Of a stretch of DNA of 34,561 nt, positions 27,341 to 30,767 are shown in pieces. How positions within the stretch are numbered: position 1 is the stretch's first letter; each line of letters opens with the position of its first letter. A program made the translations under genes and the position numbers. The DNA is from Myxococcales bacterium (lineage in GTDB: Bacteria > Myxococcota_A > Polyangia > Polyangiales > Polyangiaceae). Below the pieces are notes generated by a model. That model searched no databases. It was not told the origin of the DNA and worked only from the letters and a program-made list of their open reading frames with translations. The stretch lies in the NCBI GenBank assembly GCA_012514535.1, contig JAAZAA010000122.1, positions 1 through 34,561 on the forward strand, in the 5' to 3' direction.

Positions 27341-27817
27341 ATGGCTGCAAGGAAGTCCAAGAAGAAGACGGATGGCGCTGCGTCGTCCGGGAGCGCGTCC
27401 CGTGGGGGCGTGCGCAAAGCGGTGAGGAAGACCAAGAAGGCGGCGAAGAAGGTCGCAAAGAAGGCGAAGAAGGCCGCTGGTACGGCCACGAAGAAGGCCA
27501 AGAAGACCGGCTCCACGAGCGCCACCAAGAAGACGACGAAGAAGGCCAGCGCGCCCGCGGCGAAGAAGACGGCGACCAAGAAGACGGTCGCGAAGAAGAA
27601 GACCACGAAGAAGGCCAAGAAGACGGGCTCCGCGGTCACCACCAAGAAGGCGACGAAGAAGGCGCCCCCCGCGAAGAAGACGACGAAGAAGGCCAAGAAG
27701 GCTCCCGCGACGGGCGCCAAGAAGGCCTCCACGAAGAAGGCCCCGGCGCGCGCCAAGAAGAGCAAGAAGCGCACGGTCCGGAAGGCCCCCGCCATGCCGG
27801 CCCCCCTGGGCATGTGA
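27341..27817 (+). CDS. Lysine/alanine-rich histone H1-like DNA-binding protein
   Basis: The 158-residue protein is about one-third lysine, arranged in KKA, TKK and AKK pairs across nearly its whole length and interspersed with Ala, Thr and Pro. It resembles the C-terminal tail of eukaryotic linker histone H1 and bacterial H1-like proteins such as Hc2 or AlgP. There is no globular domain, so it should be disordered and compact DNA by charge neutralisation. AAGGA lies about 8 nt before the ATG. The reverse strand also has a long open frame, which is an artefact of the lysine codons (AAG read as CTT). The C-terminus ends in an uncharged MPAPLGM. Confidence 0.88.
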   Translation: MAARKSKKKTDGAASSGSASRGGVRKAVRKTKKAAKKVAKKAKKAAGTATKKAKKTGSTSATKKTTKKASAPAAKKTATKKTVAKKKTTKKAKKTGSAVTTKKATKKAPPAKKTTKKAKKAPATGAKKASTKKAPARAKKSKKRTVRKAPAMPAPLGM

Positions 27818-29166: not shown

Positions 29167-30084
29167 ATGAGCGTGCCGACTCTGACGACCGTCCACGAGC
29201 TGCGCACCCACTGTGAGCTCGTGCGCGCCTCGGGGCGCAGCGTGGGACTCGTCCCCACGATGGGCGCCCTCCACGAAGGACACCTCTCCCTCATCCGCCG
29301 GGCGAGGGAGCTCGCCGACGAGGTGGTCGTGACGATCTTCGTGAACCCGACGCAGTTCGGTCCCAACGAAGACTTCGAGCGCTACCCGCGGAGCCTGGAG
29401 CAAGATCGAGGACTCGCCGCCGAGGCCGGGGCGCACGTCGTCTTCGCGCCGGCGGTGGAGACGATGTACCCCCCCGGTGAGAAGACCCGCGTCTCGGTGG
29501 CGGATCTGACGCGCCCGCTGTGTGGAGCGTCCCGCGGGCCCGAGCATTTCACGGGCGTGGCGACGATCGTCACGAAGCTGTTCTCGGTGGTCGGGCCCTG
29601 CGTCGCGTGCTTCGGCCGCAAGGACTACCAGCAGCTCGCGGTGATCCAGCGCCTGGTTCGGGACCTGTTCTTGCCCGTGCGGATCGTGCCCTGCAGCACG
29701 GTGCGGGAAGAAGACGGCCTCGCGGCGAGCTCGCGGAATCGCTACCTGGACTCGAGCTGGCGCGCGCGGGCGGCGGCGATCCCCCGCGCTCTGTCCCTGG
29801 CCCACGCGACCTTCTCCTCGGGGGAGCGCCTCGCGGGGAACCTGCGGGCGCTGGTGCGGGCGGAGCTCGAGGAGCAGGGGCTCGAGATCGACTACGTGGA
29901 GCTGGCCGATCCGAACGAGCTCGAGGTCTTCGAGGACGCGGCGCAGGTGCCGGCGCGGGTCCTCCTCGCTCTGGCAGCCTTGGCCGGGGGCACACGCCTG
30001 ATCGACAACCTGGTGCTCGGCGAAGAGCCGGCACCCATCGGGAGTCTGAGGGGAGCGCTCCTCACCTCCGGGGGCGCCGCGTGA
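29167..30084 (+). CDS. panC: Pantoate-beta-alanine ligase (pantothenate synthetase)
   Basis: Joins pantoate and beta-alanine with ATP to make pantothenate, via a pantoyl-adenylate, in the cytoplasm. The 305-residue protein has [10 protein letters not shown] (30-39), FVNPTQF (58-64), GRKDYQQL (150-157) and SSRN (188-191), all active-site motifs of the family. Length is slightly above the usual 280. It lies between panB and tmk and overlaps the tmk start by 4 nt (GTGA). PanD, which supplies beta-alanine, and PanE are not in this window. Confidence 0.97.
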
Positions 30085-30767
30085 GCGAGGGGGCGTTCCT
30101 CGTCCTGGAGGGGATCGACGGTTCCGGGACGACGACCCAAGCCGCGTTGCTCGCGGAGGCCCTGCGCGCGCGGGGGCACGAGGTGGTGCTCACGCGGGAG
30201 CCGACGTCGCGCGCCATCGGCAGCCTGCTCCGGGCGGCCCTCCAGCACCGACTGACGCTGCCCTCGGGGGAGCCGGCGACGCTGCCTCCGACGAGCCTGG
30301 CGCTGCTCTTCGCGGCGGACCGCCTGGACCACCTCGCCCACGTGGTCGAGCCGGCGCTGGACCGCGGCGCCATCGTGATCAGCGATCGCTTCGATCTGTC
30401 GAGCCTCGTGTACCAGTCGGCGACGGACCCCGAGGGGGTCAAGGCGTTGGAGTGGTTGCGCTCGATCAACGGGCGGGCGCGCCGACCCGATCTCACCATC
30501 GTCGTGGATGTGCCCGCCGCGGTGGCGGAGGAGCGACGGCAACGCCGGGGGGGAGAAGCGGAGCTGTTCGAGCAGCGGGCGCTGCAGGAGCGCCTCGCGG
30601 AGTCCTATCGCAGGGCCGAGACTCTGGTGCCGGGGGATCGGGTGGTGCACGTCCGCGGGGACCAGTCCGAGGAGCTCGTCTCGGCGGAGGTCCTCGAGGT
30701 GGTGCTCGCCGAGCTGACGGCCCGCGACCGCCCTCGACTTGCCCCGCGGCCCGAGAAAACTTCATAG
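30081..30767 (+). CDS. tmk: Thymidylate kinase with an atypical P-loop
   Basis: Phosphorylates dTMP to dTDP, essential for dTTP supply. The 228-residue protein, starting at GTG 30081 inside the panC stop (GTGA overlap), has [18 protein letters not shown], the DR motif in [13 protein letters not shown] and an Arg-rich LID (RRQRRGG). The Walker A motif reads GIDGSGTTT (11-19): the invariant lysine that contacts the ATP phosphates is threonine (T17, codon ACG). The rest of the active site appears intact, so a working enzyme with a variant nucleotide site is more likely than a dead one, but this is unproven. Translation is probably coupled to panC. Confidence 0.92.

Follow-up and report, generated by a model that had tools for sequence, protein, structure and literature searches.

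A sub-family of thymidylate kinases that appears to have dispensed with the Walker A lysine

P-loop enzymes are generally considered unable to use ATP without the Walker A lysine. In the accessible text of PMC5445408 its substitution is said to inactivate these enzymes as a rule; the same text describes a natural, family-wide loss of the lysine in the SAMD9 family (GGT/S for GKT/S), which is the nearest published natural case that we found. An engineered precedent is the Lys14Ala mutant of dephospho-CoA kinase, in which, according to the available part of PMC3019153, kcat was down by only 19% and the lid-side Arg140 was critical. According to PMC9599734, Arg16 of human thymidylate kinase (TMK) is the P-loop residue at K-3, and the DR motif has a catalytic role. 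Our literature search covered titles and abstract openings, with most subscription journals outside its coverage, and returned no description of natural lysine-less thymidylate kinases. Here we describe a thymidylate kinase gene (tmk) of this kind from a Myxococcales genome and the sub-family to which it belongs.

The tmk gene of the window and its family

An earlier note on the window (the whole stretch of 34,561 nucleotides that was analysed) had reported threonine in place of the P-loop lysine in a Tmk that otherwise looked intact. Both observations were borne out: GIDGSGTTT is read in frame with ACG as the codon of Thr17, and the DR[YHF] motif, R51, R81, Q112 and the lid arginine are all present (Table 1). 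The DR[YHF] motif is catalytic and the TREP motif takes part in dTMP binding; both motifs, like R81 and Q112, are components of the dTMP and phosphate sites. There are two lysines in the whole protein, K121 and K226. Five other P-loops that we read from the window genome contain GK[ST], as does that of a kinase on contig C171.

A sequencing error at the ACG codon, which the earlier note had named as a possible refutation, is ruled out, because 29 loci of other near genomes (L010-L038) carry 24 T and 2 S at the same position (besides 2 K and one sequence cut off before the position); non-lysine residues are found there in many other genomes. A panC-like gene is found at many tmk loci of relatives. 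Elsewhere in the window (27341-27817) lies an ORF of 158 aa that is very rich in lysine and alanine and histone H1-like by eye.

Table 1. Features of the tmk locus in the window
Feature	Position	Strand	Remarks
panC (putative, name from sequence reading alone)	29167..30084	+	ORF; upstream neighbour, overlaps tmk
tmk, lysine-less thymidylate kinase, 228 aa	30081..30767	+	ORF; GTG start overlaps panC stop; TGA end at 30767
P-loop GIDGSGTTT, residues 11-19	30111..30137	+	GGG ATC GAC GGT TCC GGG ACG ACG ACC, in frame
Thr17 codon ACG, Walker A lysine position	30129..30131	+	aligns with K16 of E. coli Tmk
TREP motif, residues 38-41	30192..30203	+	P41 in 184/184 and E40 in 173/184 lysine-less sequences
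FAADRLDH, residues 77-84, sub-family signature	30309..30332	+	F77, D80, R81 in 184/184; H84 in 183; D83 in 175; set against lysine-containing forms
DRF, residues 102-104 (DR[YHF] motif)	30384..30392	+	R103 in 184/184; D102 in 180/184
LID segment, residues 152-164	30534..30572	+	R152 plus one or more additional Arg/Lys in 184/184; proposed charge donors

The window protein scored 133.9 bits against the NCBIfam dTMP kinase model TIGR00041 (cut-off 83.25) and 129.2 bits against PF02223 (cut-off 27). An AlphaFold2 model built from a 72-row alignment (mean pLDDT 94.8, pTM 0.89) had thymidylate kinases as its best PDB matches, with a Foldseek E of 4e-15 to human TMK (1e9d). Fold comparison gave Z 25.9 to the human and A. 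aeolicus enzymes, with an rmsd of 1.7-1.9 over 190-197 aligned residues. The TIGR00041 cut-off was exceeded in 6/6 proteins tested from the branch described below, namely the lysine-less window protein, L063, L055 and L058 and the regained-lysine proteins L036 and L105. We conclude that the window protein is a thymidylate kinase by profile and fold which lacks the Walker A lysine of GxxxxGK[ST], having Thr17 instead. Within the branch this lysine was found only in the seven regained-lysine rows of 191. The hallmark of type I thymidylate kinases (human, yeast), Arg at K-3, is absent as well, residue 14 being Gly in 184/184 lysine-less sequences.

Conservation, distribution and history of the branch

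We compared 242 distinct rows, made up of 184 lysine-less, 51 lysine-containing and 7 regained-lysine sequences. Left out from 119 loci were L001, L009 (window itself), L066 (wrong frame), L093, L121 and L122 (paralogues), L022 (P-loop cut) and L111 (duplicate); refetched copies and the paralogous P-loop proteins L129-L149, L232-L262, L292, L323 and L325 were also left out. At the lysine position the 184 lysine-less sequences have T 146, I 16, L 9, G 6, S 4, V 1, C 1 and H 1. Invariant among them are E10, G11, D13, G14, G16, S/T18, P41, G47, R51, F77, D80, R81, R103, S107, Q112 and R152; at residue 13 the lysine-containing rows are divided between D (29) and E (22).

No lysine or arginine occurs at residues 11-20 in any of the 184 lysine-less sequences, with His seen once at residue 17 and in 18 sequences at residue 20. 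A basic residue relocated within the P-loop, as in a deviant Walker A motif, was rejected on this count. Searching the same 184 sequences column by column, we found no new basic residue outside the P-loop that is common to the whole family; the highest lysine frequency in a well-filled column (>100 rows) was 23%, at residue 5. Nineteen of the 184 cores contain no lysine at all, and at least two of these (L096, L128) come from loci cut at a contig end. R57 was considered as a replacement charge, being present in 143/184 lysine-less versus 15/51 lysine-containing sequences (gaps included), but it is absent from 41 of the former, all six G forms among them, and was likewise rejected.

The branch differs from lysine-containing forms by D at residue 83, where the latter mostly have Q/E, by L/M for E at residue 73 and by S/T for G at residue 42. 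Further differences are L/M in place of mostly polar or basic residues at 49, W125, N130 and the nearly invariant D80 and H84. None of these branch-specific residues brings a positive charge common to all members.

In Myxococcota, the window protein had a match in 37 of the 39 near genomes searched, its own genome counted in. We also sampled 188 Myxococcota genomes (≥90% complete); 181 of them matched TIGR00041 at E≤1e-6, with 178 exceeding the cut-off of that model. The earlier note had proposed aligning the Tmk proteins of Myxococcota at this position, and 111 loci, compared after removal of paralogues and duplicates, gave T 79, K 22, G 6 and S 4. With a profile of the branch (alignment A2), 123 of the 188 genomes had a best match of at least 207 bits, 55 had lower matches only (≤178 bits) and 10 had none at E≤1e-10; the 123 take in regained-lysine members such as G098 (L105). 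The branch counts given here and below for phyla sort genomes by profile score, and P-loops were read for the loci fetched. Eight P-loops read among Myxococcus vastator, M. eversor, M. dinghuensis, Anaeromyxobacter oryzisoli, four Corallococcus and one Labilithrix all have T (L156, L159, L160, L163, L164, L166, L186, L196). A scan of contigs matched at least 586 stretches with at least 525 relatives. The best 80 of these are all lysine-less (76 T, 1 V, 1 C, 1 L, 1 H), a biased frequency because the search pattern held [TGS] at the lysine position. Private degeneration of the window tmk was rejected on the presence of the branch in 123/188 Myxococcota genomes and on the purifying selection described below.

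Two features of gene order in Myxococcota may be recorded here. In Corallococcus sicarius (G223 C125:4089-5463; L239, L244) two PF02223 matches stand in tandem on the same strand, perhaps as two lysine-less tmk copies. In Myxococcus, Corallococcus and Anaeromyxobacter (L251, L255, L256, L257, L258, L260), panB/panC-like genes adjoin a kinase with GPIGVGKT that is deoxynucleoside-kinase-like by eye; the panC of the window adjoins tmk.

The branch extends to other phyla. In the Bacillota order of genome G217 it was found in 27 of 73 genomes (≥218 bits), with I 14, L 9 and K 4 among the P-loops read. Planctomycetota had it in 15/199 genomes (≥196 bits; 14 T, 1 I) and Chloroflexota in 3/151, with V, T and I at the lysine position. 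The next-best loci contain the lysine in 27/27 cases from Chloroflexota, 3/3 from the Bacillota order and 15/15 from Planctomycetota (for L286 and L418 the K was read from the sequence). Two lysine-less matches from Planctomycetota, L406 and L407, have two in-frame stops and one, respectively, and may be broken genes, frame ends or assembly errors.

Among viral contigs of IMG/VR, 44 loci gave T 37, K 4, S 1, I 1 and G 1, in a scan biased toward lysine-less forms by [TGS] at the lysine position in the pattern. Their branch-profile scores ran from 122 to 241 bits and thus began within the range of lysine-containing sequences, so the viral lysine-less sequences need not all belong to the same branch. 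The annotated TMP kinase gene 106 of the archaeal virus HGTV-1 (Halogranum tailed virus 1) reads GVDGAGTTT (L394:292-894); the TMP kinases of HCTV-5, HCTV-1 and HATV-2 keep K, these and HGTV-1 being the four read of 40 phage records. In a plasmid search every match was below 60% identity. The missing lysine is a property of a whole Tmk sub-family, beyond an oddity of one genome.

Trees were used to follow the history of the position. In a 254-row tree, calculated with residues 17 and 18 masked and with 12 rows that are second copies of the same genes, a group of 196 lysine-less and 7 lysine rows is separated from the other 51 lysine rows, and four changes are needed. A 67-row tree of chosen rows, which holds no second copies, also has four changes, three of them forced by well-supported branches; the 18 canonical lysine rows group together (support 86/97), and all lysine rows are united in 0/200 bootstrap trees. 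The lysine is general in P-loop kinases. Since the trees are unrooted, we rely on this generality in reading the four changes as one loss and three regains. These data imply an early loss followed by three regains of the lysine within the bacterial branch. Adding 48 viral rows (this tree also holds second copies) raises the number of changes to 11, with a support of 61 at the deepest split; more losses and regains are therefore likely, and a single loss is insecure.

The regains are L036/L038 (a family in the window's order), L105 and four Bacillota sequences. Two of the three produced the P-loop GKGTQ, in which the Mg-binding Ser/Thr18 has become Gly (6/7 rows: L036, L038, L299, L300, L302, L303); adenylate kinases also have GKGTQ. 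D83 changed to Q in one of only three regain events. That the lysine was regained within the branch suggests that it is still of some value.

Copy number, selection and a possible mechanism

Among 12 well-assembled genomes, the lysine-less protein had the highest PF02223 score in 12/12 and was the sole match over the cut-off in 9/12; G021 (single contig, 12.2 Mb) has no other PF02223 match at E≤0.01. In a second genome set the lysine-less protein was the sole PF02223 protein over the cut-off in 5/12 genomes, and a third set had a sole one in 8/11, one of the eight (G425) having regained K. Genomes with a sole copy include single-contig assemblies. For close pairs in the branch dN/dS was 0.08-0.38 (60 listed of 91 pairs; six between regained-K sequences). 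The lysine-less tmk is thus under purifying selection.

The window genome itself has one further PF02223 protein over the cut-off, on contig C171 (3477-4085; 41.8 bits). It has the normal P-loop GPDGVGKSTQ (L002:1243-1902), is encoded just downstream of an ORF that resembles a nucleotide-sugar dehydratase by eye, and scored 28.1 bits with TIGR00041, against the cut-off of 83.25. A second, lysine-containing PF02223 protein was also found in five Myxococcus/Corallococcus genomes (88-96 bits, ORF of ~570 aa). These ORFs (L246, L247, L248, L249, L254) have a PF02223 domain with lysine, FEGIDGSGKTTLSN.

The earlier note had left two options, an altered nucleotide site that works or another Tmk elsewhere in the genome. 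Conservation over most of the phylum and beyond, purifying selection and the sole-copy genomes of the three sets make the former the better supported option, as judged from genome data. The latter does not hold as a general answer, given the sole-copy genomes; a search of the window genome did turn up the C171 protein, which fails the dTMP kinase model, and with it and the second protein of the five Myxococcus/Corallococcus genomes another protein might supply the activity there.

We think it probable that the window gene is the cell's housekeeping dTMP kinase and that its sub-family gave up the Walker A lysine in the distant past and functions in its absence. From sole-copy status and selection we infer that lysine-less Tmk would phosphorylate dTMP with Mg-ATP. 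The P-loop backbone amides would hold the beta-phosphate as usual, and charge on the transferred phosphate would come from the remaining arginines, chiefly R103, the lid residue R152 and a second lid Arg/Lys, in a role like that of arginine in thymidylate kinases with lid arginines (E. coli-type). Since position 17 accepts Ile, Leu, Val and Gly as well, its side chain probably contributes no chemistry. R103 and R152 are found in lysine-containing enzymes too and so do not represent a compensating change, which speaks against compensation by arginine. It seems fairly likely, moreover, that a large and ancient group of essential P-loop kinases, found in several bacterial phyla and in viruses, transfers the phosphoryl group from ATP without the Walker A lysine or a P-loop substitute; on the same reading the catalytic lysine would be evolutionarily dispensable.

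The chief rival to the arginine mechanism is that an ion bound by the P-loop backbone and Asp13, either a monovalent cation (K+ or NH4+) or another metal besides Mg, replaces the charge of the lysine, which would make the enzyme cation-dependent. The lack of a conserved basic residue that takes over fits this idea, and so do the invariance of Asp13 in the branch (184/184, compared with D 29 and E 22 in lysine-containing rows) and the small or apolar residues tolerated at position 17, which leave space for an ion; the side chains of I, L and V, however, cannot ligate a cation, and the site is conjecture. We consider a bound ion unlikely. Distinctly unlikely, in our view, is that the lysine-less Tmk has degenerated, or moonlights in another role, and that dTDP comes from another kinase, such as the Tmk-like C171 protein, a deoxynucleoside kinase or another NMP kinase. 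Such a source is suggested by the full GKST P-loop of C171, by the lysine-containing second PF02223 protein of the five Myxococcus/Corallococcus genomes and by Pseudomonas putida KT2440, in which tmk is disrupted and for which the accessible text of PMC10653934 asks about the source of the essential activity and analyses dNMPK. Against it stand the low TIGR00041 score of C171 and its position after a nucleotide-sugar-enzyme-like ORF (by eye), the 9/12 genomes with no other PF02223 protein over the cut-off, and the purifying selection and invariance of the remaining catalytic residues.

Even less probable is a branch that uses a different phosphoryl donor or acceptor (e.g. GTP, ADP, polyphosphate or another nucleotide) and has no need of the lysine. 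Signatures away from the P-loop (D83, H84, N130, W125, S/T42) would agree with a change of substrate, but R81 and Q112 persist, as do the TREP and DR motifs, and the dTMP kinase model recognized each of the six branch proteins tested.

Comparison with known systems

A metabolic kinase needed by cells appears to dispense with the lysine over whole clades and to have Ile, Leu or Gly instead. If assays confirm this, a missing P-loop lysine could no longer be equated with loss of activity. The residues T, I, L, G, V, C and H, together with the regained K, would then form a natural series for measuring the contribution of the lysine, and the regained-lysine lineages, two of three with GKGTQ, a natural experiment on its added value. 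The finding may also bear on inhibitor design, as Tmk is an antibacterial target according to PDB titles. In the PDB the branch profile scored at most 151.9 bits, compared with at least 196 bits for every branch member found in bacterial genomes; apparently, therefore, there is no solved structure of such a member.

With the canonical E. coli-type Tmk (TIGR00041; 4tmk, A. aeolicus 2pbr, T. thermophilus 5x7j) the branch shares the fold (Z 24-26), the profile, the TREP, DR and LID motifs, Gly at residue 14 and the lid arginines. Unlike the canonical type, it lacks the Walker A lysine and has D83, L/M73, S/T42 and nearly invariant D80 and H84. One T. thermophilus structure, 5x8j (sequence u92526), was crystallised with Met at the lysine position, reading DGSGMTTQ where the unchanged enzyme reads DGSGKTTQ; it is presumably an engineered variant of an enzyme that normally has the lysine, in contrast to the natural branch.

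The SAMD9 family resembles the branch in that its loss of the lysine is natural and family-wide. Its members are described, in the accessible text of PMC5445408, as STAND-like NTPases with unproven NTPase activity, in which, it is proposed, an upstream His might stand in for the lysine. A basic P-loop residue of this kind is missing from the Tmk branch, which belongs to a family of metabolic enzymes. In dephospho-CoA kinase Lys14Ala (PMC3019153, as far as its available part goes), a P-loop kinase works without the lysine and an arginine on the lid side is critical; it is an engineered single mutant, whereas the lysine-less thymidylate kinases are a natural lineage.
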